Part shown: positions 23,122 through 54,797 of the stretch, in pieces
How the letters are laid out: each line of letters opens with the position of its first letter
How positions within the stretch are numbered: the first letter of the stretch is position 1
IMG/VR virus record: IMGVR_UViG_3300022903_000002
Location: 41,083-105,082 of that record
Direction: 5' to 3' (one strand)
Source of the DNA: a virus
DNA length: 64,000 nt
The notes under the pieces: model-generated
Told to the model about the DNA's origin: nothing
The model's database searches: none
The model's input: only the letters and a program-made list of their open reading frames with translations
Program-made: the position numbers and the translations under genes

Positions 23122-23229
23122 CAATCGGATTTCAACCCAAGCGGCTCCGGCTTACATTCCGAGCCGCCAAATGTAAGTGCCCCGGCCCGCCGTCGCGCGG
23201 GCTTCTCTCATGTAAGGGGAGGAACCTCC

Positions 23230-23574: not shown

Positions 23575-23580
23575 AGACCT

Positions 23581-23669
23581 CCGCTGCGCGTCATCGCCTG
23601 CGCGTAGCGGAGCCCAACAAGAAGCCCCACCCCCTGTCGCCTTTCGCGGCGGGGGTGGGGCGGCTTTTT
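23581..23669 (+). terminator. Double hairpin ending the late region
   Basis: First hairpin 23581-23610 (CCGCTGCGCG with CGCGTAGCGG). Second 23623-23669: GCCCCACCCC pairs with GGGGTGGGGC, followed by GGCTTTTT. It lies between convergent genes (23230 + and 23681 -) and should stop the late transcript. Confidence 0.8.
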
Positions 23670-25506: not shown

Positions 25507-25745
25507 GATGCGCTGTCCTCGGTGATCCCGCACGCCCCGCATGTCCACCCCGAAAGGGCGCAGTCCGACCCGCAACCATTCCAGTTACGGCACGTCGAAC
25601 ACTCTCGCCCGTTATGAAGCGCCCTCGCGGGCTGGCCGCACGTAAGGCATACGGCGACCTGGCCAGAGCCTCCACCCATCGCGCGGGGAAGGACGTTGCC
25701 GCTGTGGTCGGTCTCGTGGACGTCGCGGACCTCGAAGTTGCTCAC
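25503..25745 (-). CDS. Cys-rich zinc-binding small protein
   Basis: 80 residues. Eight Cys in CLTCG, CSTCRNWNGCGSDC and CGACG arrangements plus one His, likely two zinc sites. GTGA overlaps with both neighbours place it in the integrase transcript. Confidence 0.6.
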   Translation of the reverse strand: MSNFEVRDVHETDHSGNVLPRAMGGGSGQVAVCLTCGQPARALHNGRECSTCRNWNGCGSDCALSGWTCGACGITEDSAS

Positions 25746-26755
25746 GTCTCGCTCGCTTCCTGGTGGAGAGGCTCAGCCTCGCGGTCAGCCAACGTCTTTC
25801 GTCTGCGGGCCGCCAGGACGAGCCCAGGTCGCTTGTCGCGCCGGTTGCGCGCCCGGTCGTACCGACGAGTGGTCTTCGGATCCCGATGCCCCAGGGCGTC
25901 CTGTACGTCCACCAGCGGCACGCCTTCGTCCAGCGCGTGCGTGGCCATGGTGTGTCGCAGCGAGTGTGGGCCGAGCCGTTCCCACGACTTGATGCCCGCC
26001 GTGCGGGCGAGATGCCGGATCAGCCTCCAGGCATACGCCTGATCGATGCGGAAGCCGGAGACGTTCAGGAACAGAGGCTCATCTTTTGCGGGCTTGCCGC
26101 GCTCCGCGAGGTAGGCATCGAGCGCTTCGGCGGCAATCTCCTCGATATGGCGGTGCGTGATGCTGCCGCCCTTCATAGTCAGGGCGATGGTCCGCTCGCC
26201 CTCGTTCCAGCCGAGGTCTCCGATGTTGGCGGCTACCACTGAGCCGACGCGTAGGCCGGCGTAGAACAGGACGGCGATCAGGGCCGCCGAACGCTTGCAG
26301 TCAGCCTCTGCGGCGTCGAGCAGCTGGTTGAGTTCGGCTTCGCTCAGCCCGACGGCGTTAGAGACGCTCTGGTCGATCTTGGGCCGCTTCACGGCCTTGG
26401 CGGGGTTGGTCTCGATGACCTCTTCGTCGGTGAGGTACTGGTACCACGAGGACACGACGGCCAGGCGGCGGGAGATCGAAGCGGGGGAGTAGCTCACCTG
26501 CTGGAGTGCGTGCTTGTAGGCATCCACGTGAGCGCGGCGGACCTTGAGCGGGTCGAGGTCGCGCTCGGCGCACCAGGGGAGCCAGCCGGGAACCTTCATA
26601 CGTGGGGCGGTGCTCATGAGGTCGCGAGCGTAAGCGACCTTGGTGTGTTCGCTGCCCTGGGCGAGTAGCCATGCAGCGACCATCTGCCGGATCGTGTCTT
26701 CAGCATCGTTTGACCGCGCGGGAAGAGGCGCGACAGTCGGTTCGAGGGCGGTCAT
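25742..26755 (-). CDS. int: Tyrosine recombinase / integrase (first of two)
   Basis: 337 residues from ATG 26755 (ATGA overlap with the gene before). N-terminal SAM-like core-binding domain (about 20-115), C-terminal catalytic domain with Arg169 (AGLRVGS), Lys195, His264 and Arg267 (HSLRHTMATHA), His290 (LGHRD) and Tyr299 (RRYDRAR). All catalytic residues are present. It is more XerD/phage-like and unrelated in detail to the integrase at 54.8 kb. No attachment site is evident beside it and it is embedded in an operon by overlaps on both sides. Confidence 0.85.
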   Translation of the reverse strand: MTALEPTVAPLPARSNDAEDTIRQMVAAWLLAQGSEHTKVAYARDLMSTAPRMKVPGWLPWCAERDLDPLKVRRAHVDAYKHALQQVSYSPASISRRLAVVSSWYQYLTDEEVIETNPAKAVKRPKIDQSVSNAVGLSEAELNQLLDAAEADCKRSAALIAVLFYAGLRVGSVVAANIGDLGWNEGERTIALTMKGGSITHRHIEEIAAEALDAYLAERGKPAKDEPLFLNVSGFRIDQAYAWRLIRHLARTAGIKSWERLGPHSLRHTMATHALDEGVPLVDVQDALGHRDPKTTRRYDRARNRRDKRPGLVLAARRRKTLADREAEPLHQEASET

Positions 26756-27654
26756 CTCTTCCACAAGTGGACCTTCTCTCCGCCGAGCATCGGCGCTCCC
26801 TCGGGGCCTTTAACATGGGGGGCGATCCAAACCGGGCGATGAACCTCACGCTTTGGGTGCCATTGCTGTCGCCAGTGTCCCCTGACGATCCACTGGTGGT
26901 GGTATTCCCGTCCTGATGCTTCGGATTCGTCCGAGGATGTCTGGGAGCGTCGCAAGGTGATGATCCTCACGGGGGCCGCTTCAGGATCGATCCGAGCTAT
27001 ACGTTTGCGGTCAGCGCGAGAGTAGGTCGCGTCTTCAATGTTCAGGATCGACTGCTGCATCAGTGTCCAGAATGTCTTCGTGACCGCGCCGTGTTTCTGG
27101 GCGCTATCGACATCGGCTGGCTTCCCGGGTTCTTGTCCGAACGACCACCAGCCGGGGACATGTGTCTCGTGAACTAGCGGGAGCATCCGCCTTGTCGCTT
27201 CGACCAGTTTGGGATACGCGGAGATCTGGTCCGTGTAGTCCCGGCGCTCTGTCAGCCAGATCGTTTGAACACCCTGGCCTTCGAGTACAGCCCAAGCGAA
27301 CCCGTGGACTCTCTCCGTAATGGGTTCGAACACGTTTGGAGCTACTTCGACTTCGTAGTCTCGATTCCAAAGAGGTTCGGGAGTGTAGAGCAGGCCGACC
27401 ATCGAGGGAAGATCCTCTTGTTGCAGAGAGTAGTCAGGGATGGTTTTTGCAGCCTCGACCGCCAGTTGGGCCATCTGCGGAGCGACGTAGTAGAGGTCAA
27501 CGCTCACGGAGGCGAGAAGATCAGCAAACTTGATCCGCATTGCTGTAGGCGTCTCAGATGGGTAGACGTTGTCGAAGAACGCCTCGGCGCGACCGTCTCG
27601 GTACCAGGCCAAGAGGTCATGCTTGATCATCGGTAGATCGACTGCGCGGATCAT
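26752..27654 (-). CDS. Protein of unknown function upstream of the integrase
   Basis: 300 residues. C-terminus holds HHQWIVRGHWRQQWHPKREVHRPVWIAPHVKGPEGAP, a motif recurring in actinobacterial mobile-element proteins of unknown function; the N-terminal 200 residues are helical with several Trp. Overlaps int1 by four bases, so they are co-translated. A defence or regulatory role is a guess. Confidence 0.55.
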   Translation of the reverse strand: MIRAVDLPMIKHDLLAWYRDGRAEAFFDNVYPSETPTAMRIKFADLLASVSVDLYYVAPQMAQLAVEAAKTIPDYSLQQEDLPSMVGLLYTPEPLWNRDYEVEVAPNVFEPITERVHGFAWAVLEGQGVQTIWLTERRDYTDQISAYPKLVEATRRMLPLVHETHVPGWWSFGQEPGKPADVDSAQKHGAVTKTFWTLMQQSILNIEDATYSRADRKRIARIDPEAAPVRIITLRRSQTSSDESEASGREYHHQWIVRGHWRQQWHPKREVHRPVWIAPHVKGPEGAPMLGGEKVHLWKR

Positions 27655-35338: not shown

Positions 35339-37282
35339 TTAGGCGGCGACTGACGCCAGCCGCTGTTTGCCCCGTTCGGTGATGCGATACAGTCCGCGAC
35401 CGGTCTTCTCGATCTCGCCCGAGGCGACCAGGTCGGTGAGAGCCTTGGTGATAGTGCGGAGCGCCGGCGGCGGGGACATGTGGGTCTGGATGAACCCGAC
35501 CATCTCCCCTCGGTTCACTTCCTGGCCGTCCCGCTCCGCCAGATAACTCAAGACGGCGTCTTCGCCGATGCGGGACTGGTCGGAGTCGTCCTGTGTGTCC
35601 GCCTTCGATGACTGGCTTTGTGGGGTGTGGGCGCTGGCTCCGTCGCCGCCGGCGACAGGACCGACGAACGGCTCGAGTTGCGCCGGCTCCCCGCTCGTTG
35701 CCCAACGTCGCGGCTTGATGATCAGGAACGTTCGCATCGTCGCGGGACGGTCAGCGCCGGGCCCGAACACGTAACCGAGACCTGAAGTCGTGTCTCCGTT
35801 CGGCCATTCCTTGGGCAGCGTGCACGGGTCGACGGGCATCGACCCGTTGAACGCGACCTGGCCCGAGAGGCGGTTCGCGGTGCGGAACACGATGACGTTC
35901 CCGGCGGCGACTGCGTCACGGATCGCCATGGAGTTGCCCAGGCTGTTCAACAGCGGCACTTGGGTGATTAGCCGGAATTTGATCCCGCACTTGCGGGACA
36001 TCGCGATCATTTCCTCAACGAGCGCACAGCAGACAGGGTCACCGAGGACGGTCTGCGCCTCGTCGACTGTGACGCTGATCATTGGCAGGCCGTGACGCGG
36101 GTCGCCGGGGGTGAACTCCTCGATGCCCTCGATCTCTTCGCCGTCCTCATCGACCCACCGGATCGTGGACATGAGTTCGTTGCGGGCGTACATACGGTCG
36201 CGGAGTTCACGGAGCCGGCCGCGGATCGCGTCGAGGCCACCAGCGAACTGAGCGACAGCGTTCTTCCACCCAGACTCGGAGTAGGACTGCCCGCGTTGCG
36301 GGTCCAGAAGGATCGAAGCGATCACACCAGAGTGGCGTTCCTCGGCGAGGAGGAGTTTGACGAGGACAGACTTCCCGGCGTCGGTGGATCCGGCGATGAG
36401 GTCGTGGACCGGCCCGGACCGTGGCCGGTAGTGCCGGTACGAGACAGGATTCCCGTCGGTGTACACGCCGATACGGGAGACACCAGTGGCGGTTTTGAGA
36501 GTCGGCCCAGGCCAGTGGTGAACCTCCTGGAGCGGGTTCTCGGCCTGCACGAGCACCCGGAAGTGCCGAAGGGACCCGTCGGGGGCCGGTTCGATACTGA
36601 TCGAGCCGGTCTTCAGGTGGAGTGCGCCACCGATGTCCTCGGTCGCCATAATCGCGCGCTTGTAGGTGCCTTTGGTGACTTCGCCCAGTCCGGCCCAGCC
36701 GCCGCGGATCTTCTCTACTTCGAGGATCCGCGAGTGCTCGAGCGGGCCGCCTGAGCAGGAGACATGGAGGCGCCACGACTCGACCAGCTCCGGGTCCTCC
36801 GCGACGGGCGCGACCTCGGGCGCCTGGTGGTTGCGGATGCGGTAGCGCCACCACCACGGCAACGCGAACGCCCCACCGACGATCGCGAGCCACGCGGGCA
36901 TCGGCTTGCCGACACCGTGCGCTGCGGCTTCCATGAGCCACAGCGTCGCCGCGATGATTGAGGTGACCGCGTGCAACTGCCGCCAGATATTCACGGCCTT
37001 GGCGTAGAGGGCCCACCATGTGCCGCCGGCGGTTACCGCGCCGGTTGCGAGGACCGCCCACCACGGGGCACTGAACACCTCCAAGGCGAACCCAGTGACG
37101 TAGGCGCCGCCCATGACCTCGACGGGGATGAGTTGGCGGCGGAACCGTCTCCCGACCTTGAACGTCCCGGCGAGGGCCCGGTGCTCCTTCTTCGGAGCGG
37201 ACGCCGCAGCGGCAACCGCTGGCTGGGACACGTCAACGCGAACCGTCTGCGGGTCCCGCTGCTCAACTGCTACGGCGTCCAT
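35339..37282 (-). CDS. FtsK/SpoIIIE-type DNA translocase (TraB-like conjugation protein)
   Basis: 647 residues. N-terminal hydrophobic segments (about 52-70, 73-93, 105-120, 128-145) anchor it in the membrane. Central motor domain has Walker A at 297-305 (AGSTDAGKS), Walker B at 401-408 (MISVTVDE) and the LITQVPLLNSLG sensor region. The C-terminal 75 residues form a winged helix, as in TraB proteins that bind short repeats (clt) and move double-stranded DNA between hyphae. Length and domain order fit AICE/plasmid TraB rather than a phage packaging ATPase or the longer cell-division FtsK. Confidence 0.85.
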   Translation of the reverse strand: MDAVAVEQRDPQTVRVDVSQPAVAAAASAPKKEHRALAGTFKVGRRFRRQLIPVEVMGGAYVTGFALEVFSAPWWAVLATGAVTAGGTWWALYAKAVNIWRQLHAVTSIIAATLWLMEAAAHGVGKPMPAWLAIVGGAFALPWWWRYRIRNHQAPEVAPVAEDPELVESWRLHVSCSGGPLEHSRILEVEKIRGGWAGLGEVTKGTYKRAIMATEDIGGALHLKTGSISIEPAPDGSLRHFRVLVQAENPLQEVHHWPGPTLKTATGVSRIGVYTDGNPVSYRHYRPRSGPVHDLIAGSTDAGKSVLVKLLLAEERHSGVIASILLDPQRGQSYSESGWKNAVAQFAGGLDAIRGRLRELRDRMYARNELMSTIRWVDEDGEEIEGIEEFTPGDPRHGLPMISVTVDEAQTVLGDPVCCALVEEMIAMSRKCGIKFRLITQVPLLNSLGNSMAIRDAVAAGNVIVFRTANRLSGQVAFNGSMPVDPCTLPKEWPNGDTTSGLGYVFGPGADRPATMRTFLIIKPRRWATSGEPAQLEPFVGPVAGGDGASAHTPQSQSSKADTQDDSDQSRIGEDAVLSYLAERDGQEVNRGEMVGFIQTHMSPPPALRTITKALTDLVASGEIEKTGRGLYRITERGKQRLASVAA

Positions 37283-37354
37283 GGGTCTCCGTCCCTGGAA
37301 AATGTGAGATGTGGGGTGGGCCCGGGCGCGTCACCGCCCGGACCCGAATGCAGG

Positions 37355-38272
37355 TCAGCCGCTGTAGAAGCTCGTGTCGCCGACCTTCGCCGTGGCGCCC
37401 TGGACGGACTGCTCGACGTTCTCGTGGCCCTGCGTCCGCAGCTTTGTGCGCGCCGCCTCAGCGTTCGCGACGGTCTGCTCCGCGGCCTGCAGGCGCTGCG
37501 TCGCCGCGGTGCGCCGCTGCATCGCTGCATCCATCAGATCCGTCATCCCGCCGGCGGTCTCAGAACCCAGGCCCGCGTTCAGCAGGCTCGTGTTCGTGGA
37601 CTCGTGCGCGGCGATCTCCTTGTCCGCTGCGGCGATCTCCGCTCGGGCTTCCTCGATCCGCCCTGCCGCTGCGCTGATCGTCGCGTCAAGGTGGGTGCGG
37701 TAGGTGCCGATGTTGGTGGTCTCACCGGTCATCGTGTCGGTCACTGTCGTTTCCTTTCCTGTTGGAGACTCACTGCCTGCCCCGGCCGGGACAGCCCGGA
37801 GAACGGCCGCGCCTCGAACACGCGACGTCGGCTCCTCTGGTTTCGGGGTGGGTGTCGTCGGCTCCGGCTCGCTCGCCTCGGCCGCAGCGCCTCGCCGGAA
37901 CTTCGCTTTGGCTCGTTCCCAGCCAGCGCGGATCGCGTTCCGCAGCGGCGGTACCGGCTCTCCGGTCGCGGCGCGGCGTTCCTGCCATTCCTGGTGCTGC
38001 TTCTTGGCAGCGACGAATCCGTCCCGCATGTCGGCGACGGTCGGCGACCAGCCGTGCCGCAATTGGTATGCGAAATGACCGAGGGCGTTTCTTCGGGCAC
38101 CCCACCACAGAGCGCGGGCGCGCCGGGATTTGTCCCAGCTCGGGTGTCGGCTTTTCAGTTCTTTGTTGAGTTGTTTCCGGTAGCGGTCTTGGGCGGTCCG
38201 GTATTCGGCGGCTTTGCCTTCGAATATGTGGCACAGCGCCCAGCCGATTGCGACGAGCAGTAGAAGTCCCAT
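37355..38272 (-). CDS. Membrane-anchored coiled-coil protein of the transfer module
   Basis: 305 residues from ATG 38272. N-terminal span (LLLLVAIGWALCHIF), a basic central part (KELKSRHPSWDKSRRARALWWGARRNALGHFAYQLRHGWSPTVADMR), Pro/Glu linker, then a long coiled coil (about 205-300, RIEEARAEIAAADKEIAAHE...). The type occurs between traB and spd-like genes of actinomycete conjugative elements; intercellular spread is the likely role. Confidence 0.6.
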   Translation of the reverse strand: MGLLLLVAIGWALCHIFEGKAAEYRTAQDRYRKQLNKELKSRHPSWDKSRRARALWWGARRNALGHFAYQLRHGWSPTVADMRDGFVAAKKQHQEWQERRAATGEPVPPLRNAIRAGWERAKAKFRRGAAAEASEPEPTTPTPKPEEPTSRVRGAAVLRAVPAGAGSESPTGKETTVTDTMTGETTNIGTYRTHLDATISAAAGRIEEARAEIAAADKEIAAHESTNTSLLNAGLGSETAGGMTDLMDAAMQRRTAATQRLQAAEQTVANAEAARTKLRTQGHENVEQSVQGATAKVGDTSFYSG

Positions 38273-38276
38273 TACG

Positions 38277-38744
38277 TCACACCCCGAACAATTTTCCGAT
38301 GACGGCGGCACCAGTCACCGCGACGGTTGACAGGAAAGTGGCGAGCCAGCTACCGATGGTCCCGCCGATCTGCGGCCCGAAAGCGGGAAGTAGAAGCGCG
38401 GAAATCTCGGTGGTCCGGTTCGACTGGTGTTTCGGCCACAAGTCGTAGATGACGATGTAGGCGAGGACGAACGCGATCACAACGGGGATGGCAGCACCGA
38501 CGTAGGGGATGGTGACGGCCCACCGCATCACGGTGACGGCCCACGAGGCGAGGAACGCGGCGGCGAACCCCACCCCGGCGATCAGGTACAGCCACGGCTT
38601 CAGGAACTCGATCTTGCCGAGGGGCTTCCAGTTCAGCAGCAGCGCGAACGTGATGCAGATGCCAGCGGCGCCGAGCGAGATGGCGGTGAAGTGGTGCGGG
38701 ACAGACGCCGATACGGCGGCCTGCCTCGCAGCTACGGATGTCAA
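38277..38744 (-). CDS. Spd-like polytopic membrane protein
   Basis: 155 residues from TTG 38744, eight bases after AAGGAGAGG. Four membrane spans around residues 22-42, 50-75, 80-105 and 125-150, with a short loop KHQSNRTTEIS. Small multi-span proteins next to traB (SpdB type) help spread conjugative elements along hyphae; assignment by position and topology. Confidence 0.55.
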   Translation of the reverse strand: MTSVAARQAAVSASVPHHFTAISLGAAGICITFALLLNWKPLGKIEFLKPWLYLIAGVGFAAAFLASWAVTVMRWAVTIPYVGAAIPVVIAFVLAYIVIYDLWPKHQSNRTTEISALLLPAFGPQIGGTIGSWLATFLSTVAVTGAAVIGKLFGV

Positions 38745-38770
38745 GGGACCTCTCCTTCTGTGAGCAGGGA

Positions 38771-39244
38771 TTAGTGGAGTCGCCACACGATGACGGCGAA
38801 GATCAGGAAGCAGATCGAGCGGGCGGGTCGCTGGATCAGCCATGCGGCTGCGTACAGCGCCCAGGACGCGGGGATCGCGATGAGGAAGCAGTGGATGCGT
38901 TGCGCCAGGCGGAGGAACGGAACGCCGCCAGCCATGGGGGCGGCCTTCGCGTAGGCGAGGAGCTCGTAGGTCGACGCAGGGTGCTCGGCTTTGAAGCCGG
39001 AGTTGCGCCCGGGCCAGTTCCCGAGCTTCGCGAGGGTCTCTTTGGCTTGGGAGATCCACAGGTCGACGACCTCGTCTACGGCGCTGAAGTCCTCTTCCTC
39101 ATCGGTGTCGGCGCCGCGTTCGCGGTCACCTTCGGTTACACTCTCCTCGCGCGCACCCGGGCGCGCCCGCGCGTCGCGCCCCTCCGTCGCGTAGGGGACC
39201 TCTTCTTCGAGCAACGGCCCGTTGCCCATTGCGCTTTGCCTCAT
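38771..39244 (-). CDS. Membrane protein of the transfer module
   Basis: 157 residues (ATG 39244 in TGATG). Acidic N-terminus (TDEEEDFSAVDEVVD), helical middle, and two C-terminal membrane spans (CFLIAIPASWALYAAAWLI; RSICFLIFAVIVW). Partner of the Spd-like protein by position. Confidence 0.5.
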   Translation of the reverse strand: MRQSAMGNGPLLEEEVPYATEGRDARARPGAREESVTEGDRERGADTDEEEDFSAVDEVVDLWISQAKETLAKLGNWPGRNSGFKAEHPASTYELLAYAKAAPMAGGVPFLRLAQRIHCFLIAIPASWALYAAAWLIQRPARSICFLIFAVIVWRLH

Positions 39245-39465
39245 CACTGCCCGTCACCTCCTTCCAGATACTGGATGCGCGTGTTGATGAGCCTGATCAT
39301 CTGGTCGACCTCCGTTACGGACAGGCCTGCTGGCAGGTCGGCGACGATCCGCCGCCAGCGGTCGAACTGGACCGCGACGCGCTCCTGCGGGGTCCGCACC
39401 CGGCGGGCCTTCCGGTCAAGGAGTGCCTGGCGTCGCTCGGCGCGTGCCTCGGATCGAGTGCTCAC
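39244..39465 (-). CDS. Small basic helical protein
   Basis: 73 residues, Arg-rich start (MSTRSEARAERRQALLDRKARRVRT) then a helix-turn-helix-like stretch. Translationally coupled to its neighbours. Unknown. Confidence 0.5.
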   Translation of the reverse strand: MSTRSEARAERRQALLDRKARRVRTPQERVAVQFDRWRRIVADLPAGLSVTEVDQMIRLINTRIQYLEGGDGQ

Positions 39466-39695
39466 GGGGTCGCCTCGACGTCTGACTGCTCGGCGTGAGC
39501 GCCCTGCGGCTTGATGTAGGTCCGGTACGCCCAGATGGCAGCGATGCCGAGTGTGATGATCACGATCAGCCCGACGAATCGCATGTACGTGTGGAGGTTG
39601 CGATCCATAGCGGTCGCGACCACTCCGCCGGCGACCGCCCCGGAGATGGTTGCGGCAACAACGGTCGTGACCACTGGCCTGATGTTGGTGGTCAT
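39462..39695 (-). CDS. Small two-span membrane protein
   Basis: 77 residues with two hydrophobic helices (VVTTVVAATISGAVAGGVVATA; FVGLIVIITLGIAAIWAY) and a short acidic tail. Fits Spd-type small membrane proteins of AICEs. Confidence 0.5.
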   Translation of the reverse strand: MTTNIRPVVTTVVAATISGAVAGGVVATAMDRNLHTYMRFVGLIVIITLGIAAIWAYRTYIKPQGAHAEQSDVEATP

Positions 39696-41218
39696 CCGGT
39701 CTTCACCTCACTGGTCTGCTGGTGGTCTTTTGGGGTGGTCGCGTCCGCCTGGTCGTTGCCGCGGTGTCCGCCTCCGACCGGTCGCGGACCGGCCTCCTGG
39801 ATCCGCTTGAGAGCCCAACTCGGGGAGAACCCGAACCGCTTGGCGAGGGCACGCTTCGACAGCGGCGACCCTGCCTGGACACTGGCGAGGTACGCGTCCA
39901 CTGCACGCTGGTTGTCCTCGGTGGATGGTTGCGGCTTGGTGGTCGCGTTCACATGGTCGCGTCCGGTCTTCCGGGTGGACTTCTTGGCCGGTCGCGTCCG
40001 GTTGGCCGGGTGGTCTTTTGGGGTGGTCGCGTCCGCCTGGTCACTGGACGCAGGAGGCTGGACGTTCGGGTAGTCGCGTCCACTGGTTTCGATGGCGGCG
40101 CGTCCGGTCGCGGTAGTGGTCGCGTCCACCGGTCGCGGGGTGGTCGCGTCCACCGGTCGCGGGGTGGTCGCGTCCACCGGTCGCGGGGTGGTCGCGTCCA
40201 GGTGGTCGCTCGGCCGCGTCCGGGTGGTCGCGGACAGGGTGGTCGCGGCGCCGTCCGTCCAGAACAGCCGGACGCGGGTCTTGGGTCCGGTGACCGGACG
40301 CGCGACGGTGGACGCGACCACCAACCGGACGGAGGGCCGGCGGTCTTTCGCGAGCCGCTTCTGGTTCTTCGCGATCGCCCTCTTGCGGTCGATCCTGTCG
40401 ATCTCCGTGACGGCCGCGGTCCACGCCTCGTCAACGGTTCTGATGCCGTAGCGGACCGCGAGGGACCATGCATGCCACGTGATGCGCGGGAACCGCAGCC
40501 ACCGGAGGATCCCGAACCGCGGCCGGGCCTCAGCGACCTTCCCTTTCGCGCGCAGGTGCTTGCGGTGAATCAGCGAGGAGTACAGCTCCCACAGGGCGAT
40601 GCCGACGAGGCTCATGGCACCGTAGGAGACCGCTTTGGGGTTGGGGTCGAGGTTGATGTGCTGACGTATCGTCTGCGCGTTAAGGCGTTCGGTGACGACA
40701 GGGCAGGCGTGCCAGTAGTTCATCGCGCCGGCCGAGCAGGCGAACAGCCAAGTCGCGAACCGGAATAGTGCGCCCCGGTCACCATCTTTGCGCGCTTGGT
40801 GGTACATCCAGCCGGTGAAAGCGGTCGTCAGCTCCCATGCGGCGGCAAATATCAGGGCGCCGAGAAGGGGCCAGCCGAGTTTGTCGTGCGCGAATCCGAT
40901 CTGCCCAATCCACGCGACCGCCATAGGAGCGAGAATCGGCCCCGTGATCATGACTCGCCGACCGACCGTTGGCATTAGCGCCTGGATCTTCTTCGCAAGT
41001 TTCTGCCGGGCGTGCTGGCGTCGAATGCGGCGCTTCGCCTGTTCGTTGGCGCGGGTCTGCTTCTTCTCCTCGTCGAGGATCAGTTTCTGCCGCTCGCGCT
41101 GAAGGCGCAGCTGTTCCCGTTCGTGGCTGAGACGAACACGGGTCTCTTCGGTGATGCGTGCCTGCTCGGCGGAGACCTGGATACGGGTGGCTTTGCGGTC
41201 GGCGGGGATCTCGCTCAT
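39692..41218 (-). CDS. DUF2637-type membrane/DNA-binding protein with DATTPRPV repeats
   Basis: 508 residues. N-terminal basic coiled coil (RLSHEREQLRLQRERQKLILDEEKKQ), four hydrophobic segments in about residues 88-215 (the DUF2637 region common in AICEs), a basic cytosolic part, then a low-complexity region with three exact DATTPRPV repeats and many other DATT units, and a C-terminal helix-turn-helix (SPLSKRALAKRFGFSPSWALKRIQEAG). Such proteins are found beside FtsK/TraB in actinomycete elements; the HTH implies DNA contact at the membrane, perhaps with the transferred element. Confidence 0.6.
   Translation of the reverse strand: MSEIPADRKATRIQVSAEQARITEETRVRLSHEREQLRLQRERQKLILDEEKKQTRANEQAKRRIRRQHARQKLAKKIQALMPTVGRRVMITGPILAPMAVAWIGQIGFAHDKLGWPLLGALIFAAAWELTTAFTGWMYHQARKDGDRGALFRFATWLFACSAGAMNYWHACPVVTERLNAQTIRQHINLDPNPKAVSYGAMSLVGIALWELYSSLIHRKHLRAKGKVAEARPRFGILRWLRFPRITWHAWSLAVRYGIRTVDEAWTAAVTEIDRIDRKRAIAKNQKRLAKDRRPSVRLVVASTVARPVTGPKTRVRLFWTDGAATTLSATTRTRPSDHLDATTPRPVDATTPRPVDATTPRPVDATTTATGRAAIETSGRDYPNVQPPASSDQADATTPKDHPANRTRPAKKSTRKTGRDHVNATTKPQPSTEDNQRAVDAYLASVQAGSPLSKRALAKRFGFSPSWALKRIQEAGPRPVGGGHRGNDQADATTPKDHQQTSEVKTG
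40116..40200 (+). repeat. 24-bp tandem repeat in the DUF2637-type gene
   Basis: Three perfect 24-bp copies (40116-40139, 40140-40163, 40164-40187) plus a 13-base partial copy, encoding DATTPRPV on the - strand. The decamer GGTCGCGTCC recurs outside the array (for example near 39733, 39956, 39970, 40026, 40075), so the whole C-terminal third is built from this unit. Confidence 0.85.
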
Positions 41219-41532
41219 GCCGCCACCTCGTCGCGTTGCTGCTGGATCTTCTGGCGTTCGTCGATGTTGTAACCGCCCCAGATGCCGTACTGGTCGTGAC
41301 GGTCAAGCGCGTCTTCCAAGCAGTCGACACGGACCGGGCAGCCCTCGCAGATCGACCTAGCGAGCGGCGCACGCCGTCCCTTCGCCGGGTACCAGGCGTC
41401 CCCTCCGACGTCACGGCACGCGGCGTCGTCCTGCCATTCGAGGCCCCGCATGTCCAAGGCGAGGGCATGGAGGAAGGAGGCGACACCACTGCCCCAGGGG
41501 GAGGATGCGTGGTGGCGTTGGCGGGCGGTCAT
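41215..41532 (-). CDS. WhiB-family iron-sulfur regulator
   Basis: 105 residues. Four cluster-binding Cys: C39, C62, C65, C71 (AACRD ... ICEGCPVRVDC), then the GIWGG turn (83-87) and a basic tail. Start at ATG 41532, directly after the previous stop with GAGG upstream. WhiB proteins are specific to Actinomycetota and bind the sigma factor; in mobile elements they tune host or element transcription. Confidence 0.85.
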   Translation of the reverse strand: MTARQRHHASSPWGSGVASFLHALALDMRGLEWQDDAACRDVGGDAWYPAKGRRAPLARSICEGCPVRVDCLEDALDRHDQYGIWGGYNIDERQKIQQQRDEVAA

Positions 41533-41535
41533 GGC

Positions 41536-41970
41536 TCAGACCTCTTCGTTCGCGTTGTCGGGGAACAGCTCGGCGTCCAAGGCGGCGAGCCACTCTTCGT
41601 CCTTGCGGGACAGTTCGACGGTCATGGACTCGGGATGGCCAGCCGGCGGGGCGTCGAAGGAGCGGACGACGCTGCAGCAGGAGCAGGTCTCCCCGTACTG
41701 GCGGAGCTCGCCATCGGTCACGTACTCCAGCGGCACCCAGCCGTGCCCGTCCCGGACGCAGTCCTCGATCTGCGTGCATGACGCGCACAGCATCTGCAGG
41801 GACCCGTCCGGCTGCTCGGTGATCGACCACATGAAGTCGACGGGCAGGAGGCGGAGGGCCGTACCGCGGGAAGTGAAGAGCGGCTGGACGTCCTCGTAGC
41901 CCTTCCACCAGTCCGGTCCACACATGTCGCAGGTTGCGGTGGTCGCACCATAGGTTTTGCCGAACGTCAT
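41536..41970 (-). CDS. Zinc-binding protein upstream of whiB
   Basis: 144 residues from ATG 41970, which is preceded by GGGAGG at a good distance. Cys pairs CDMCG, CASC and CSCC are spread over the first 100 residues. Beta-rich middle (FMWSITEQPDGSLQMLC). Unknown role. Confidence 0.55.
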   Translation of the reverse strand: MTFGKTYGATTATCDMCGPDWWKGYEDVQPLFTSRGTALRLLPVDFMWSITEQPDGSLQMLCASCTQIEDCVRDGHGWVPLEYVTDGELRQYGETCSCCSVVRSFDAPPAGHPESMTVELSRKDEEWLAALDAELFPDNANEEV

Positions 41971-41975
41971 CGGGT

Positions 41976-42095
41976 TCACCTCCCGTTGGTGGTCGTGTCG
42001 GTGGTCTGGGTGTTGTCGGCGGCCTGCTGCTCGAGCTGGCGACGCAGGAACTGCTGATCGACTCCGTGGCCGACCGGGTCGGTGTAGGCGCTCAT
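41976..42095 (-). CDS. 39-residue peptide ending in NGR
   Basis: ATG 42095 with GAAGGAGG upstream. MSAYTDPVGHGVDQQFLRRQLEQQAADNTQTTDTTTNGR. The last codons (AAC GGG AGG TGA) double as the ribosome site of the next gene. A second peptide at 43500 ends the same way. Confidence 0.55.
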   Translation of the reverse strand: MSAYTDPVGHGVDQQFLRRQLEQQAADNTQTTDTTTNGR

Positions 42096-42472
42096 GACCG
42101 ACCTCCTTCGGCGCGGGCGGGGTAGTGGTCGCCGAGGTGGTAGCGCTTGTACGTGCCCTCTGGCACGTTCAGGGAGTGCCGCTTGCCGTTCTTGCCGCGA
42201 ACCACGAGGACCCACACAGACCGGCACTCCACCGGGAGGGGCATCTGCTTGCAGTACGGGGCGGGGCTCACCATGCGCAGGGAGCGTCGAGCGGTGACGA
42301 CACCGGTGATGTTGGGCTTCGTCGTGGGCCTTGCGCTGGTGGGCCCTGGGTGGGTGGGTGCTGCGCTCGGAGGCTTTGTGGGCTCCGTGCGCGGCGCCGA
42401 GCCGGTGCTGGCGCATCCAGCCGTACCTACGAGCAAGCCAGCGGCAGCGACCACGCTGATGAGTTTCGTCAT
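42092..42472 (-). CDS. Small lipoprotein
   Basis: 126 residues. Signal peptide and lipobox (LISVVAAAGLLVGTAGC, lipidated Cys20), a Pro/Thr-rich linker (25-55), then a globular part with two Cys (APYCKQMPLPVECRSVWVLVV). Exported and membrane-anchored; might mediate entry exclusion, by analogy only. Confidence 0.7.
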   Translation of the reverse strand: MTKLISVVAAAGLLVGTAGCASTGSAPRTEPTKPPSAAPTHPGPTSARPTTKPNITGVVTARRSLRMVSPAPYCKQMPLPVECRSVWVLVVRGKNGKRHSLNVPEGTYKRYHLGDHYPARAEGGRS

Positions 42473-42609
42473 GCCGTCACCGCCCGGTCAGGGTGGAACT
42501 CGTGGTCGACGTCAGCGGCGCGGACGGTGTGTCCACCGTCGTCCCAGCAGTCGAACTGGATCGGGCCGCCGGTCAGGGACGTCTGGTGAATTGGGCAACG
42601 AGCGTTCAT
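42469..42609 (-). CDS. 46-residue Cys/His peptide
   Basis: ATG 42609, ATGA overlaps on both sides. MNARCPIHQTSLTGGPIQFDCWDDGGHTV... has CxxH and CxxxxxH elements, so one zinc site is possible. Confidence 0.5.
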   Translation of the reverse strand: MNARCPIHQTSLTGGPIQFDCWDDGGHTVRAADVDHEFHPDRAVTA

Positions 42610-43229
42610 CGGACGTCACCGCCCGCGCTGTAGAGCGAAGCGATGACCTCATCGAGGTCGACGCCATCGTCCGCACTCAGATCCGAGAACGCCGGATCGG
42701 TGCTGTAGCCGTGGCGTCCCAGCACCTCACTGATCTCAGCGAGTGCCTCGGTGGCGTTCGCCGGGACCGGCCCGCCGCTCCCGCTGAGGCCCTCCACGAT
42801 CCGGCTGACCGAGCCGGCGAGCACCGCCAGATCCATGTCGGCGCGCACCGCGGCGGGAATCCGCAGGTTCGGGTGAGGGGCGTGACCCTCGTGCTCGTGG
42901 CACTCGACCGTGGTGACGACGAGGGAGTGAGTGGTTCCGCGGGTCTCGACGCGGCCCGTGGCGGTGACAGTTGGCGGTTGCAGGATCCTGCCCGGTCCGC
43001 GGACCGGACCGATCAGATCACGGAACTCCTGGTAGTAGAGCGGGAAGACGATGATGCCGATGGATACGTGTTCGCCGCTCAGGCGGAACTCTGCCCAGTC
43101 GTTGCCTTGCCTGGTGCGGTGGGGGCTGTGGCCGTTGAGGATGCCGGTGACAGTGACGATCTCGCCGTCCTCGTGGAGACCGGCAGCGATCGAGGTGATC
43201 GACGGTCCCTGGATGGTGTAGGTCTTCAT
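42606..43229 (-). CDS. OB-fold-like protein
   Basis: 207 residues. The stretch DGEIVTVTGILNGHSPHRTRQGNDWAEFRLSG...GIIVFPLYYQEFRDLIGPVRGPGRILQPPTVTATGRVETRG reads as an OB-fold nucleic-acid-binding domain like those next to DNA polymerase alpha subunits. The C-terminus is helical and acidic. It may act in element replication or repair. Confidence 0.55.
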   Translation of the reverse strand: MKTYTIQGPSITSIAAGLHEDGEIVTVTGILNGHSPHRTRQGNDWAEFRLSGEHVSIGIIVFPLYYQEFRDLIGPVRGPGRILQPPTVTATGRVETRGTTHSLVVTTVECHEHEGHAPHPNLRIPAAVRADMDLAVLAGSVSRIVEGLSGSGGPVPANATEALAEISEVLGRHGYSTDPAFSDLSADDGVDLDEVIASLYSAGGDVR

Positions 43230-43495
43230 CGGTTCGCACCGCCGTCCTCGTCACCGAGGAACGTGCCGAGCACCTGGATGCCGTTCGAGATCGGAACCTC
43301 ACGGACCGCAGGCTTGGAGATGCGGTCGCGGATCACGGAGACGAAGATCGCCAGGACGATGGCACCGAACGGGACGATCAGAATCGACGCTTCCGTGTAA
43401 CGGATCCATGCGGGTGCGCTCATCGGGGTGAGGAGTGTGAGACCGAGGACCGCGTAGTAGGCGCCGACCGCAACGGTGGGCTTGTAGAGGGTCAT
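43226..43495 (-). CDS. Small membrane protein
   Basis: 89 residues from ATG 43495. Two or three hydrophobic helices (VAVGAYYAVLGLTLLTP; ILIVPFGAIVLAIFVSVI) and a soluble C-terminus. Unknown. Confidence 0.5.
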   Translation of the reverse strand: MTLYKPTVAVGAYYAVLGLTLLTPMSAPAWIRYTEASILIVPFGAIVLAIFVSVIRDRISKPAVREVPISNGIQVLGTFLGDEDGGANR

Positions 43496-43499
43496 GTCG

Positions 43500-43607
43500 T
43501 CACCTCCCGTTCTGGTGTTGGGTCTTGTCGTACTGGTCGCGGAGGAAGTCGCTCTCGCTGCTGTCGAAGTCGTCGCCGTAGTGCATGACGATGGGGAGGG
43601 CACGCAT
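43500..43607 (-). CDS. 35-residue acidic peptide ending in NGR
   Basis: ATG 43607 in a TGATG overlap. MRALPIVMHYGDDFDSSESDFLRDQYDKTQHQNGR. As at 41976, the last codons AAC GGG AGG TGA form the ribosome site of the following gene. Confidence 0.5.
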   Translation of the reverse strand: MRALPIVMHYGDDFDSSESDFLRDQYDKTQHQNGR

Positions 43608-43834
43608 CAGGACACCCCCGGCAGGTTGCGCTGGTGCTCCATGCCCATCGCGAACGCACCAGCGACGGCAGCGAGGAAGCCATCGACCTCGTCGGTGACG
43701 TCCGCGCCGTTCAGCTGAGCGTCCAGCGCGGCAGCGAGAGCGGTCACGTTGATGGAGGCGGGTACCCGGAACTGCGGGATGCTGTCGTCGTCCGCGATGG
43801 GGCGAGGAACGCCATGCTCTAGAGTGAGTGCCAC
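43607..43834 (-). CDS. Small unknown protein
   Basis: 75 residues from GTG 43834 with GAGAGGAAC upstream. Helical SINVTALAAALDAQLNGADVTDEVDGFLAAVAGAFAMGMEHQRN. No family recognised. Confidence 0.5.
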   Translation of the reverse strand: MALTLEHGVPRPIADDDSIPQFRVPASINVTALAAALDAQLNGADVTDEVDGFLAAVAGAFAMGMEHQRNLPGVS

Positions 43835-43877
43835 AGGATCGGTTCCTCTCGTGATGGGGCGGTGACAGGTCCTGCTC

Positions 43878-43910
43878 GCCCCGTTCCGGTGTTCGCGCAC
43901 CGGGCGGGGC
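43878..43910 (-). terminator. GC-rich hairpin between two leftward genes
   Basis: GCCCCGTTCCGGTG (43878-43891) pairs with CACCGGGCGGGGC (43898-43910) with one mismatch/bulge. No T-tract on the - strand, so it probably attenuates rather than stops the operon. Confidence 0.4.
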
Positions 43911-43932
43911 TTCTTGCTGTTCGCGAGGGCGG

Positions 43933-44079
43933 TCACCATTCGGCTCGCCCCACATCGGTGATCTCTTGTTGACACCGGCAGGTCTGGCAGAAGGCGGTCT
44001 CGCCGATCGTCCACATCGATGCACTACCGGTCGGCCACAGGTAGTGGGCGCAGACGAGCACGACTCGTAAGGCAGCCAT
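43933..44079 (-). CDS. 48-residue Cys-rich peptide
   Basis: ATG 44079 in TGATG. MAALRVVLVCAHYLW...AFCQTCRCQQEITDVGRAEW, four Cys and one His in CxH/CxxCxC form. Second gene of the leftward operon. Confidence 0.5.
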   Translation of the reverse strand: MAALRVVLVCAHYLWPTGSASMWTIGETAFCQTCRCQQEITDVGRAEW

Positions 44080-44297
44080 CAGGCGACCGCCTCAGGTAGT
44101 GGGGGGCTGATCCGACGCCGCTCCAAATATTCGGCGACCGACTGCTTGTAGATCTTGATGGGGGCGTTACGGGCAGGCCCCTTGACGGCCTGAAGCTCCC
44201 CGTTCCTGACGAGCCGCCTCACGGTCCACCGTGAGAGATGAAGCTCTTTGCAGGTCTCCGCTGTCGAAAGGAACACGTTGCTACCCTCGCTCTCCAT
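44079..44297 (-). CDS. Excisionase-like helix-turn-helix protein
   Basis: 72 residues from ATG 44297. LSTAETCKELHLSRWTVRRLVRNGELQAVKGPARNAPIKIYKQSVAEYLERRR is the MerR/Xis-type winged helix used by excisionases and small AICE regulators. It is the first gene of the leftward operon that ends with int1. An inverted repeat overlaps its start codon and there is no clear ribosome site, so it may be translated from a leaderless mRNA. Confidence 0.65.
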   Translation of the reverse strand: MESEGSNVFLSTAETCKELHLSRWTVRRLVRNGELQAVKGPARNAPIKIYKQSVAEYLERRRISPPLPEAVA

Positions 44298-44390
44298 GTA
44301 GCAGTACGCTACAAGATGCACCAAGATGCTGCAAGGGGGTCTGGCCAAGAGGTTGTTCCAACTTGTTGCAAGGCGCTACAACAGACCTAT
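44297..44390. promoter_or_regulatory. Divergent control region between the Xis-like and XRE genes
   Basis: TGTAGC-AGTAC-GCTACA (44297-44313) is a perfect 6-bp inverted repeat at the leftward start codon. Related half sites follow on the + strand: GATGCACCAAG, GCTGCAAGG, GTTGCAAGG, GCGCTACAAC (44371-44382). The shared element is roughly yTTGyAGC. Both promoters must lie here. Confidence 0.55.
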
Positions 44391-44742
44391 GAGCGCAGAT
44401 GAACCGGGCGCCCGTTTCGCAGCCGAGGTCGACGCCAGACGGAAAGCGATGGGTCGCGCGGTCGGGTGGCTGGAGGATCGATCGGGTATCGCTCGCAGCA
44501 CGGTTGGCCGCTGGCGAAGAGGCCTTGCTGCGCCAACACCAGAGCCGGTGATCGCGATTGCCGATGCCCTCGGCATGGACCGGACGACAGCGCTGCAACT
44601 CGCTGGGCTCTCTCCGGCGATCGCGGTGGGTGAGGCGGGCGAGCCGATGGCGTTGACCAGGATTCACATTGATGTCCTGCTGGCCGAAATACGTAGGCGA
44701 ATCCCCAATGCTGACGACACTGCGTCTGAAGGCTCGGACTAG
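44389..44742 (+). CDS. XRE-family regulator
   Basis: 117 residues from ATG 44389. Helix-turn-helix RRKAMGRAVGWLEDRSGIARSTVGRWRRGLAAPTPEPVIAIADALGMDRTTALQLAGLSP fits the Cro/CI type. No ribosome site precedes it, consistent with leaderless translation. It is divergent from the leftward operon and flanked by repeat sites, so it probably controls both. Confidence 0.75.
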   Translation: MSADEPGARFAAEVDARRKAMGRAVGWLEDRSGIARSTVGRWRRGLAAPTPEPVIAIADALGMDRTTALQLAGLSPAIAVGEAGEPMALTRIHIDVLLAEIRRRIPNADDTASEGSD

Positions 44743-44822
44743 TAAGTGGTGGCAGGTTGTGGTTTCTTGGCGCACGACACCACCGTCCGCCTTGCGGGCG
44801 AACCACTGCCATGTAGCAAGGC

Positions 44823-44893
44823 TGCAACTCGCTGCAGTAACCATGGAGGGATACTGCAGTTCTGTGCACCATCCGCAGTTACCCTGCAATTAC
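44823..44893 (+). repeat. Helically phased TGCAgttac direct repeats before the Nudix gene
   Basis: Related 9-mers start at 44823 (TGCAACTCG), 44833 (TGCAGTAAC), 44855 (TGCAGTTCT), 44874 (CGCAGTTAC) and 44885 (TGCAATTAC). Spacings of 10, 22, 19 and 11 place all of them on one DNA face. Likely operator for the XRE or Nudix-HTH protein. Confidence 0.5.
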
Positions 44894-44920
44894 ACGTTGA
44901 GAAGCCTCTAGGGAGGCGGG

Positions 44921-45583
44921 ATGGACCCGGCTCAGGAGTGGACGGGGCGCACAGCCACCGCGCTCCGCAAAGCCCTACGATTGACCGTCGACCGGTTCGC
45001 CAGCCGACTCGGAGTAGCACCGCGGACTGTCGCGAATTGGTCAGCGCAGCCCGATATGGTCCCGCGCGTAAGCGTGCAGGACGCACTCGACGACCTGCTC
45101 GGCCAGGCGACTCCCGCCGTCCGAGAGCGCTTCACGGAACTTGCTGATGGCAATGAGGGTGCGTCGGTAGGCCATGCTCAATCGCTCCGTGTCGCGATCT
45201 CGGTGGTAACCCGGAATCGAGACGTGCTGCTCGTGAAGCGCCGTGATGACGGGGCAGGGATCTCTTGGCAGTTCCCGGCCGGCGTCATCAAACCGGGCGA
45301 ACGCGGCGAAGACGTAGCCGTGCGGGAGACCCTTGGGGAGACCGGCGTTCACTGCATCGTGCAACAGCCGATCGGCTCCCGGCTCCACCCCGTGACGGGT
45401 GTGTACTGCGACTACTACGCCTGCGACTTCCTCACGGGAGAAGCAGTGAACCGGGATACCGTGGAAAATGCCGGTGTCGCATGGGTGTCGCGCCAGGATC
45501 TGACCCGGTTCGTCGCCCGTGACAAGGTGTACCCGCCGATCTTGCGCTTCCTGGAGGAACAGCGTGACGCAGCCCACCGATAG
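44921..45583 (+). CDS. HTH-Nudix fusion protein with degenerate Nudix box (Pif-like)
   Basis: 220 residues, ATG after GGGAGGCGGG. Residues 10-70 form a helix-turn-helix (RLTVDRFASRLGVAPRTVANW). Residues 88-215 are a Nudix fold, with the box G121x5E127x7R135E136xxG139E140xG142: the first Glu of the metal-binding EE pair is Gly139. In the AICE pSAM2 the Nudix protein Pif blocks transfer into cells already carrying the element; a similar regulatory or sensor role is plausible. Coupled to the next gene by overlap. Confidence 0.7.
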   Translation: MDPAQEWTGRTATALRKALRLTVDRFASRLGVAPRTVANWSAQPDMVPRVSVQDALDDLLGQATPAVRERFTELADGNEGASVGHAQSLRVAISVVTRNRDVLLVKRRDDGAGISWQFPAGVIKPGERGEDVAVRETLGETGVHCIVQQPIGSRLHPVTGVYCDYYACDFLTGEAVNRDTVENAGVAWVSRQDLTRFVARDKVYPPILRFLEEQRDAAHR

Positions 45584-46001
45584 CCGCCCCGTCATCGCAG
45601 CGGCCGTGATCGTCAAAGACGGTCGCTTCCTGCTCGTGCAGCGGGCCGTCTCGGAGGGCAGCCTGTCGTGGCAGTTCCCGGCCGGCGAAGTCGAGCAGGG
45701 CGAATTGGTAGAGGACGCGGCTGTTCGGGAGACCGCCGAGGAGGCCGGGCTCGTCGTTGTCGCTAAGAGCAGGCTGGGGGAACGGATCCATCCCGCCACG
45801 GGCCGCGAGATGGTCTACGTCGAGTGCGAAGTCATCGACGGAGAAGCGCACGCCGCGGACGATGAGGAGATCGCTGCAGTCTCCTGGATCCGTCTCGACG
45901 AGATCCCCGAGTACGTCCCCTACGGCTTCTACAGGCCGGTGCACGAACACCTTGCCGAGAGGCTGGGAGGCGGACCGCGCGAGCGCACCACCGGCGAGTG
46001 A
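45564..46001 (+). CDS. Nudix hydrolase
   Basis: 145 residues from GTG 45564 (GGAGG seven bases upstream, inside the previous gene). Complete Nudix box G41x5E47x7R55E56xxE59E60xG62. It is clearly paralogous to the Nudix half of the preceding protein (both contain SWQFPAG at the same place), so the pair arose by duplication, one copy keeping the active site. Would hydrolyse a nucleoside diphosphate derivative. Ends at a terminator. Confidence 0.8.
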   Translation: MTQPTDSRPVIAAAVIVKDGRFLLVQRAVSEGSLSWQFPAGEVEQGELVEDAAVRETAEEAGLVVVAKSRLGERIHPATGREMVYVECEVIDGEAHAADDEEIAAVSWIRLDEIPEYVPYGFYRPVHEHLAERLGGGPRERTTGE

Positions 46002-46046: not shown

Positions 46047-46358
46047 CATCTCTGGGGTCGATGTAGCAGCGGGGCGCTGAGAGCCACCAGGAACTCCCAT
46101 ATGGCTCGGACCTATAGTCGCCCATGAGCAAGGGGCTTTGCGGCCCGCACGTTCCTCCTGGGTGTCGTTTTTGAGGGCATGGCGAAACATGCGCCTCGCT
46201 GTCGAAGGCATAGCAATGGACTCCGTCCTCTCGGAGCGCCGTTCTCGCGTGCGCACGCGCGAGGGGCTCCTGGAAGGGGAAGGGGATAGGGGAAGGGGAA
46301 ACCAATACTTCCCACCGTTACTACTCCCCTTCCCCTGTGCCCGACGGGTATCCCTCGC
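46047..46358 (+). other. 312-bp gene-free stretch with purine-rich run
   Basis: No gene recognised on either strand. It contains a G/A-rich run near 46270-46303 (GGAAGGGGAAGGGG units) and a matching C/T run near 46323-46335, which could fold back or form a triplex. It leads into the AAGGGTT repeat clusters. Confidence 0.4.
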
Positions 46359-46415
46359 TTAGGGTTCCCGGAAGGGTTCGCTAAGGGTTCTTGGAACCCT
46401 TAGCGAAGGGTTGTG
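46359..46415. repeat. AAGGGTT repeat cluster 1
   Basis: Five copies of the AGGGTT core: TTAGGGTTC at 46359, AAGGGTTCG at 46372, TAAGGGTTC at 46382, inverted GAACCCTTA at 46394, and AAGGGTTGTG at 46406. The middle two form a perfect 13-bp-arm palindrome (46378-46406, TTG loop). The cluster ends GAAGGGTTGTGACCTGC, the same as cluster 2. Confidence 0.8.
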
Positions 46416-46612
46416 ACCTGCAAGGACGCTGGTTCACGGGCTTGCGGCGAACCATGACCTCCCGCCCTCGAAACGGTTGGCCGAAATAGGGGTAGGAAAG
46501 CTGCAAAAACAGGGCCGGTGGCCGCAGTCAGCACGTCCGGTTGTGAGCCTCGTGAACTGCGAGCAGGAAAAATGCGGCAGGGCTTATGTTTCCCCAGGTA
46601 GAAACCCCCGGC
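46416..46612 (+). other. Spacer between the two repeat clusters
   Basis: 197 bp with no credible ORF. It opens with a decayed copy of the small ORF at 46668 (GTGACCTGC followed directly by AAGGACGCTG) that stops after 14 codons. AT content rises around 46500-46590. Confidence 0.4.
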
Positions 46613-46670
46613 GAAGGGTTCCCGTAACCCTTTATAGAACCCTTGGGGGAACCCTTAGAGAAGGGTTGTG
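46613..46670. repeat. AAGGGTT repeat cluster 2
   Basis: Five copies: GAAGGGTT at 46613, inverted TAACCCTTT at 46625, inverted GAACCCTTG at 46637, inverted GAACCCTTA at 46649, direct AAGGGTTGTG at 46661. Spacing of 12 bases between consecutive sites is regular. The last copy overlaps the ribosome site of the small ORF at 46668. Confidence 0.8.
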
Positions 46671-46790
46671 ACCTGCGCTTTCGCGTATCTCGCGCACAAC
46701 ACTGAGAAGGACGCTGATCGGCGCGTGGTGGACTACCTGATCGAGCATGACCGGCGGGATCTGCTCGCGCCAGCCGTGTCCCGCGGCTAG
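46668..46790 (+). CDS. 40-residue protein after the repeat cluster
   Basis: GTG start with GAAGGG before it. MTCAFAYLAHNTEKDADRRVVDYLIEHDRRDLLAPAVSRG, charged and helical with normal high-GC codon use. Its 3' end overlaps the stop of the leftward gene by four bases. It may be a truncated relic, since a shorter copy of its start exists after cluster 1. Confidence 0.45.
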   Translation: MTCAFAYLAHNTEKDADRRVVDYLIEHDRRDLLAPAVSRG

Positions 46791-54559: not shown

Positions 54560-54797
54560 GGGAGCACGGGGAGCACGGACGTGCTTTTCGGGGGTGCTCT
54601 CGGTCCTCTGCTGTCCGAGCCTGTCCGGTCTCAACCAGGAGATTTAGGGTCTGACCTGCGTGGAGGTTTAGGGAAACCTCGTTCACACCGAAGAGGTCAC
54701 TGGTTCGAACCCAGTATCGCCCACCCAAGGTCAGGCCCGCTTTTCCGGTCAGGACAAGATCGGCTAGAGCGGTTCTCGGGAGCACATCTGGGAGCAC
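54560..54797. other. Attachment site: tRNA-Val(CAC) 3' half flanked by paired arm repeats (attP-like)
   Basis: 54679-54725 equals the 3' part of a tRNA-Val gene: anticodon loop TTCACAC (anticodon CAC), stem, variable loop, T arm GGTTCGAACCC and acceptor strand ATCGCCCACC. No 5' half is present upstream. GGGAGCAC occurs at 54560 and 54569 on the left and at 54778 and 54790 on the right, as expected of integrase arm-binding sites. The integrase gene ends 102 bases to the right of the core. Confidence 0.75.

Follow-up and report, generated by a model that had tools for sequence, protein, structure and literature searches.

Can a temperate phage also carry the means to move its own DNA by conjugation? 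The question is raised by a 64,000-nucleotide stretch of viral DNA (the window; G000:C1:41083-105082), which forms the right-hand 64 kb of the 105,082-bp IMG/VR record IMGVR_UViG_3300022903_000002, and in which a block of plasmid-type transfer (tra) genes on the opposite strand separates phage late genes from an integrase and repressor region. Phages and conjugative elements are usually viewed as separate routes of DNA movement. The analysis presented here indicates that the element is probably a complete temperate siphophage of a soil actinomycete of Streptosporangiales type, with a stable, resident TraB/Spd system for double-stranded DNA (dsDNA) transfer of the type found in plasmids and integrative and conjugative elements (ICEs). 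A preliminary description of the sequence had proposed the module of an actinomycete ICE (AICE) inside a phage-like genome; a plasmid/ICE-type transfer module within one phage genome was confirmed, whereas its identity as an AICE module, a recent fusion and a clt site were not.

The leftward block (35.3–44.3 kb) consists of an operon that starts with an excisionase (Xis)-like helix-turn-helix (HTH) gene and continues through small genes, a WhiB-like regulator, a DUF2637-like protein, small membrane proteins, a 155-amino acid (aa) protein with four transmembrane (TM) helices and a 305-aa protein to TraB, with an XRE-Nudix fusion gene and a Nudix gene diverging from it (Table 1). This gene set is present as first described, the DUF2637-like member being sub-threshold in the window, and its order agrees with that of about 30 related loci, well above chance expectation. 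The TraB-like protein combines the membrane N-terminus, P-loop motor (Walker A GSTDAGKS, Walker B SVTVDEA) and winged-helix C-terminus of the TraB type, and residues 73–557 match the NCBIfam model NF041214 (plasmid_TraB) at 2.7e-16, albeit under its equivalog cut-off. A low-confidence AlphaFold2 model reproduced the helix layout with a confident winged helix at residues 561–646, and a PDB sequence search returned a match to the winged helix only. Spd-type membrane proteins share the operon with TraB, as is characteristic of TraB systems, and the profile of the 155-aa protein matches the equivalent slots of ICEs and plasmids (hhalign 78–82%). In relatives the DUF2637 slot scores above the PF10935 cut-off, with 133 bits in an ICE and 38.7 bits in phage G021. 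Genes 53–60% identical to the XRE-Nudix fusion occupy the equivalent divergent place in G002, G003 and G006, next to neighbours 51–54% identical to the Nudix hydrolase, which is a possible analogue of the conjugal immunity protein Pif of pSAM2.

The phage character of the element is apparent from the whole record. Its 3' end encodes the N-terminus of an AAA ATPase, with Walker A, and its start encodes the remainder, the two pieces aligning to residues 23–56 and 86–308 of the G002 protein with approximately 15 residues missing between the reading frames. Because both ends lie in one AAA ATPase gene, the record represents a single molecule and an essentially complete siphophage genome, circular or circularly permuted. 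The 41 kb to the left of the window contain phage replication genes (AAA ATPase, DnaB and SSB), with terminase and portal immediately adjacent to the late genes of the window; the phage-type DnaB (contig 11606–12916) is the sole replication initiator or helicase detected in the record. Terminase, portal, HK97-type capsid, tail tube, tape measure and endolysin are present in order, as in temperate siphophages (Caudoviricetes), and an attP core matching a tRNA gene adjoins the integrase, the relatives of which are located at the att ends of prophages. The element most likely integrates at tRNA-Val(CAC) by means of this integrase. The host is probably a member of the Streptosporangiales, given a related metagenome-assembled genome (MAG) of the Streptosporangiaceae and the relatives in Actinomadura and Nonomuraea.

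As the preliminary description had supposed, the module lies inside this one phage genome: no host genes were recognised in the record, no second att pair was found between 24 and 46 kb, and base composition is even. A chance joining of two elements during metagenomic assembly might be suspected from the single record and from the MAG, in which orthologues of both parts are present but the assembly is fragmented. This is extremely unlikely given the closure of the record ends in one gene, the even composition, the same succession of late genes, opposite-strand tra block and integrase with repressor in a closed circular replicon (plasmid III of Nonomuraea gerenzanensis), and the opposite-strand tra blocks of phages G021 and G022, in which the TraBs are different ones.

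A different origin for the combination would be an ICE or AICE that inserted into or fused with a phage, leaving a passenger or a decaying chimera. The block does have an ICE-type tyrosine recombinase gene and the Xis-like gene at its two ends, and Streptomyces sp. WMMB 322 and S. abyssalis harbour DnaB-type ICEs that carry the module but no virion genes. However, the longest direct repeats flanking 25.7–44.3 kb are 14 nt, against a mean of about 12 and a maximum of 16 in shuffled sequence, and a nested ICE was rejected for want of repeats above chance level. The module genes are also intact and under purifying selection, the ratio of nonsynonymous to synonymous substitution rates (dN/dS) being 0.17–0.27 for traB (0.17 against the MAG orthologue) and 0.24–0.40 for three neighbouring genes, with 0.28–0.30 for terminase; traB is therefore selectively maintained. 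Together with the pairing of the module with at least three types of virion gene set and a 14-member, phage-dominated traB clade with 100/100 support, this makes an inserted ICE very improbable. A recent one-off fusion, as suggested beforehand, is contradicted by the recurrence of the combination in many phages and by the purifying selection.

Several of these other carriers have defined ends. In Streptomyces sp. H27-H1, a 62.4-kb prophage is bounded by 16-bp direct repeats that split an ABC-transporter substrate-binding gene, with an integrase at one end; it encloses genes for TerL, portal, capsid and tape measure along with the complete module. The 66.5-kb prophage of Streptomyces sp. SA15 has 31-bp repeats, an integrase at one end, and capsid plus module, while each end of G006 (59.7 kb) has a 48-bp repeat that looks like the 3' end of a tRNA, with an integrase beside one of them. 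Nonomuraea plasmid III is a closed circle of 59,257 bp containing TerL, portal, capsid, tail tube and the module, and so provides the joint presence of capsid and traB in one circle to which the preliminary description had looked for support; its attP-like core, one base off that of the window, lies beside an integrase fragment. Eight more IMG/VR contigs (G003, G005, G008, G036, G037, G038, G044 and G045) pair terminase, portal, capsid or tape measure with the module. In total, about 14 distinct phage contigs and prophages, mostly of Streptomyces, combine virion genes with the module, counting the window element and G022, and counting once G039 and SA15, which have identical traB genes and are probably one element. 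G001, an ICE adjoining virion genes, was left out of this count, and so was G009, the terminal repeats of which lie inside a pentapeptide-repeat-like coding sequence and are not att sites. Among the Streptomyces members, closely related traB genes (74–92% identical) occur alongside three or more distinct sets of virion genes.

The long contigs nearest to the window phage by terminase are G021 (80%), G022 (74%) and G033 (59%). The G022 TraB is 27–29% identical to that of the window and matches NF041214 at 4.5e-12; G021 encodes a P-loop/winged-helix protein (read by eye) with DUF2637 and WhiB, and G033 an FtsK gamma-domain protein with a DUF2637-like protein. The tra genes run opposite to the late genes in G021, G022, the window and Nonomuraea plasmid III, and the presence of this opposite-strand block with other TraBs in G021 and G022 suggests a layout that persists as one TraB lineage is replaced by another. 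A search of 12 further terminase relatives, mostly shorter contigs and possibly fragments, gave no TraB match except for a weak one in G023.

Beyond phages, the window TraB matches 135 plasmid records, nearly all from Streptomyces or Kitasatospora. In the Streptosporangiaceae MAG the module genes are in order and 43–80% identical, and a separate contig carries a terminase approximately 60% identical beside a portal. Searches with alignments A2, A5 and A6 were successful; A1 was too diverse as a query, and IMG/VR scans with the single TraB protein and with alignment A3 produced no matches. A survey of 149 other Streptomyces species genomes gave no full-score match to the phage-type traB and two matches that were more distant, so that this traB is uncommon.

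In a tree of 32 TraB rows, in which G004 and G002 were labelled unclear as they lack proven virion sets, the phage label requires at least four changes even when well-supported branches alone are counted, which indicates that phages acquired traB several times. The phage-dominated clade is sister to the TraBs of linear plasmids, and the window TraB and that of the MAG form the sister group of Actinomadura loci, although several long branches make deep placements unsure. Since its nearest TraB relatives belong to linear plasmids of Streptomyces, to DnaB-type ICEs and to other phages, the module does not strictly qualify as one of the AICE kind. Whether these carriers form a recurrent class of actinomycete temperate phages with two self-encoded routes, virions and TraB-mediated dsDNA conjugation, the TraB lineages having been gained from plasmids or ICEs several times and the whole class being missed by tools that look for relaxases or type IV secretion, is a proposition for and against which we see the balance as even.

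In actinomycete TraB/Spd systems, a TraB hexamer translocates dsDNA without a relaxase or type IV secretion (PMC9513070). By analogy, the excised circular window element would be gripped through the winged-helix domain by TraB hexamers in the membrane, which would pump dsDNA across a septum or into a touching hypha. Help with the channel and with intramycelial spread, in the role of Spd proteins, could come from the 155-aa, 305-aa and DUF2637-like proteins, and the XRE-Nudix/Nudix pair may control the module and block redundant transfer in the manner of Pif of pSAM2 (PMC3218068). In this way the phage would have two exits, virions for distance and TraB transfer through the mycelium without lysis. 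Its ability to conjugate is what we infer from homology.

The main rival accepts the module as real and resident but has TraB serve the phage itself, segregating phage or prophage DNA or moving it through the septa of a growing mycelium. The benefit would then be limited to vertical stability or to spread inside the mycelium, and other individuals would receive no DNA. Spd/TraB systems function within a mycelium too, isolated Streptomyces phages (Wofford and relatives) have FtsK-like translocases without a tra module, and no clt was found in the window. Against such segregation or spread within one mycelium stands the retention of a full plasmid-type operon (TraB, the 4-TM protein, the protein of about 300 aa, the DUF2637-like protein, regulators and the Nudix pair) rather than a motor alone, and this explanation is considered unlikely, if less so than an inserted ICE or an assembly error.

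The 8-bp repeats resembling a clt that had been anticipated near traB could not be located. Neither GACCCGGA, which we take to be the clt motif of pSVH1, nor the FtsK motif GGGNAGGG was enriched, and the short repeats in the intergenic gaps around traB amounted to a hairpin only. A clt is undescribed even for pSAM2 (PMC9513070). An iteron-like AAGGGTT cluster beyond the Nudix genes is a candidate origin, partition or TraB-binding site: AAGGGTTNY occurs nine times in the window against 1.3 expected, none of 100 shuffles reached nine, and the cluster holds two near-identical 29-bp units 255 bp apart. Nonomuraea plasmid III carries seven TGTCCACA (DnaA-box-like) sites within 160 bp upstream of a large gene (L014 16838–16997), likely its plasmid origin.

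A number of observations weigh against the window element being a phage with a resident transfer system. Its linkage of tra and phage genes rests on the assembly of a single virus record. The TraB scores far under the 800-bit equivalog cut-off of NF041214, and the AlphaFold2 model of its motor is of low confidence (predicted local distance difference test score 52.7), too weak for a fold search. None of 50,697 isolated-phage records contains a close TraB, so that no virion-proven carrier is known, and the search beside traB for a clt-like 8-bp repeat cluster was negative. In the finished chromosome of Actinomadura WMMA1423, host- or cargo-like genes part the module from the late genes; judged by eye, these include genes of the kinase, P450 and methyltransferase types, and the locus was set aside as proof.

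Table 1. Features of the window, with positions counted from its first nucleotide.
Feature	Position	Strand	Evidence or remarks
Siphophage late region: capsid, connector, tail tube, tape measure, Dit, minor tail, endolysin	1..23600	+	
XerC/D-like tyrosine recombinase (resolvase or second integrase)	25742..26764	-	PF00589 3e-29; TIGR02224/02225 ~1e-40, below cut-off
traB-like FtsK-family DNA translocase, 647 aa	35339..37282	-	N-terminal membrane helices, P-loop motor, winged-helix C-terminus
Conserved GC hairpin directly upstream of traB	37283..37354	-	9-pair stem; equivalent place in phages, MAG and ICE; double-sided changes in 2 pairs
~305-aa protein, 1 TM, fixed position upstream of traB	37355..38272	-	gene order in all relatives; 67–70% identical in Streptosporangiaceae MAG
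155-aa 4-TM Spd-like membrane protein	38277..38744	-	slot and length shared with phages, plasmids and ICEs
152-aa module protein, 1 TM	38771..39229	-	74–75% identical in MAG, order kept
77-aa module membrane protein	39462..39695	-	conserved slot
DUF2637-like protein, 508 aa, repeats in coding sequence	39692..41218	-	PF10935 18.6 bits (cut-off 22.8); phrog_10376 6.3e-12
WhiB-like regulator	41215..41532	-	PF02467 5.7e-20
Excisionase-like HTH_17 protein heading leftward block	44079..44297	-	PF12728 1.5e-10; phrog_66 excisionase 1.4e-6
Divergent XRE-Nudix fusion	44921..45583	+	PF00293 3.8e-15 and HTH_31
Nudix hydrolase	45564..46001 (alternative start 45519)	+	PF00293 6.6e-21
Iteron-like AAGGGTT cluster	46352..46676	.	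in 666-bp intergenic region; 8 of the window's 9 AAGGGTTNY sites
attP core	54679..54725	+	47-nt exact match, nt 28–74 of A. violacea tRNA-Val(CAC)
Phage integrase	54827..56308	-	PF14659, PF00589, phrog_1 4.4e-29
Early region	60653..64000	+	stops inside AAA ATPase gene continued at left end of record

Other features of the phage genes were observed. In the tape-measure reading frame (window 7392–12134, 1580 aa), residues from about 1012 to 1351 match Hint/intein-splicing and LAGLIDADG homing-endonuclease domains, which places an intein in this tail protein. A GT4-type glycosyltransferase gene (window 2984–3970) lies in the head operon, flanked by the genes for capsid and head-tail adaptor, and is retained in G021 (two copies) and G022. 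A Phd/YefM-like antitoxin gene with a 119-aa partner (window 16875–17603) occupies the minus strand inside the plus-strand tail operon, and a gene for a PCMT-type protein methyltransferase (window 48887–50059) is located between the Nudix region and the integrase. In the WMMA1423 chromosome, the exact attP core occurs without a whole tRNA gene (L101 1501–1532) about 9 kb from a one-mismatch copy, which suggests another element at the identical tRNA-Val.

If the window element is indeed a phage with a working transfer system, it would be a dual-mode vehicle that spreads through a mycelium without lysis and travels at a distance in particles, and its TraB could also move host genes. TraB systems have no relaxase or type IV secretion, so standard mobility typing reports such elements as non-mobilizable, the label that Nonomuraea plasmid III has in PLSDB. 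The Streptomyces members sit in cultured strains, which makes the proposal directly testable. The open-access papers searched described no complete phage that has a TraB system, an absence that is weak evidence.

Among known systems, the linear plasmids of Streptomyces and Kitasatospora (for example NZ_CP106800.1, NZ_CP119148.1 and NZ_CP108405.1) encode TraBs 33–37% identical over the motor, in an operon ordered as in the window: regulators/WhiB, DUF2637, a protein of about 90 aa, a multi-TM protein of about 155 aa, one of about 400 aa, and TraB. These plasmids have no virion genes in the regions read, whereas the window element possesses complete virion and lysis gene sets together with an integrase. 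The DnaB-type ICEs, of 35.3 kb in Streptomyces sp. WMMB 322 and of 33.1 kb in S. abyssalis, share the module, with TraBs 38–40% identical to that of the window, and are bounded by tRNA-Thr repeats with iteron-like repeats beside dnaB; unlike the window element they are only 33–35 kb and lack virion genes. The Stanwilliamsviridae (Streptomyces phages Wofford and Yaboi) resemble the window element in having a motor of the FtsK/TraB superfamily in an actinophage, but these motors show 22–24% identity and no tra operon is annotated around them.

In phage-plasmids (P1, pZL12 and other groups), an element bearing virion genes can also exist as a circular replicon, a description that fits Nonomuraea plasmid III and NZ_CP108705.1. 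The window element has an integrase, attP and the iteron-like cluster, and no ParA or ParB was seen among its scanned proteins. The 88-kb circle NZ_CP108705.1, a Streptomyces phage-plasmid that has ParAB as well as virion genes, additionally codes for a P-loop/winged-helix protein of 717 aa and a membrane protein of 399 aa (L238 1517–7610), apparently another TraB-type module. Phage-plasmids are reported to acquire mob/oriT mainly during the loss of phage genes (PMC10879196, PMC12977533, PMC11652158).

AICEs of the pSAM2 type share with the window element the integrase and tRNA attachment site, TraB as the main transfer protein, and the XRE and Nudix (Pif) genes (PMC3218068, PMC9513070). AICE traB regions in one Streptomyces population span 11.9–36.2 kb (PMC9513070), and AICEs are equipped with RepSA, RepAM or Prim-pol (PMC3218068), whereas the window element is 105 kb long and has virion genes and DnaB. 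The absence of an AICE-type Rep had been noted beforehand and extends to the complete record for Prim-Pol and to the scanned proteins for Rep families, the RepSA and RepAM profiles not having been run. Because its virion genes and 105-kb size fall outside the AICE definition and Prim-Pol is absent, the window element is not an AICE but a temperate phage with conjugative-type gene content.

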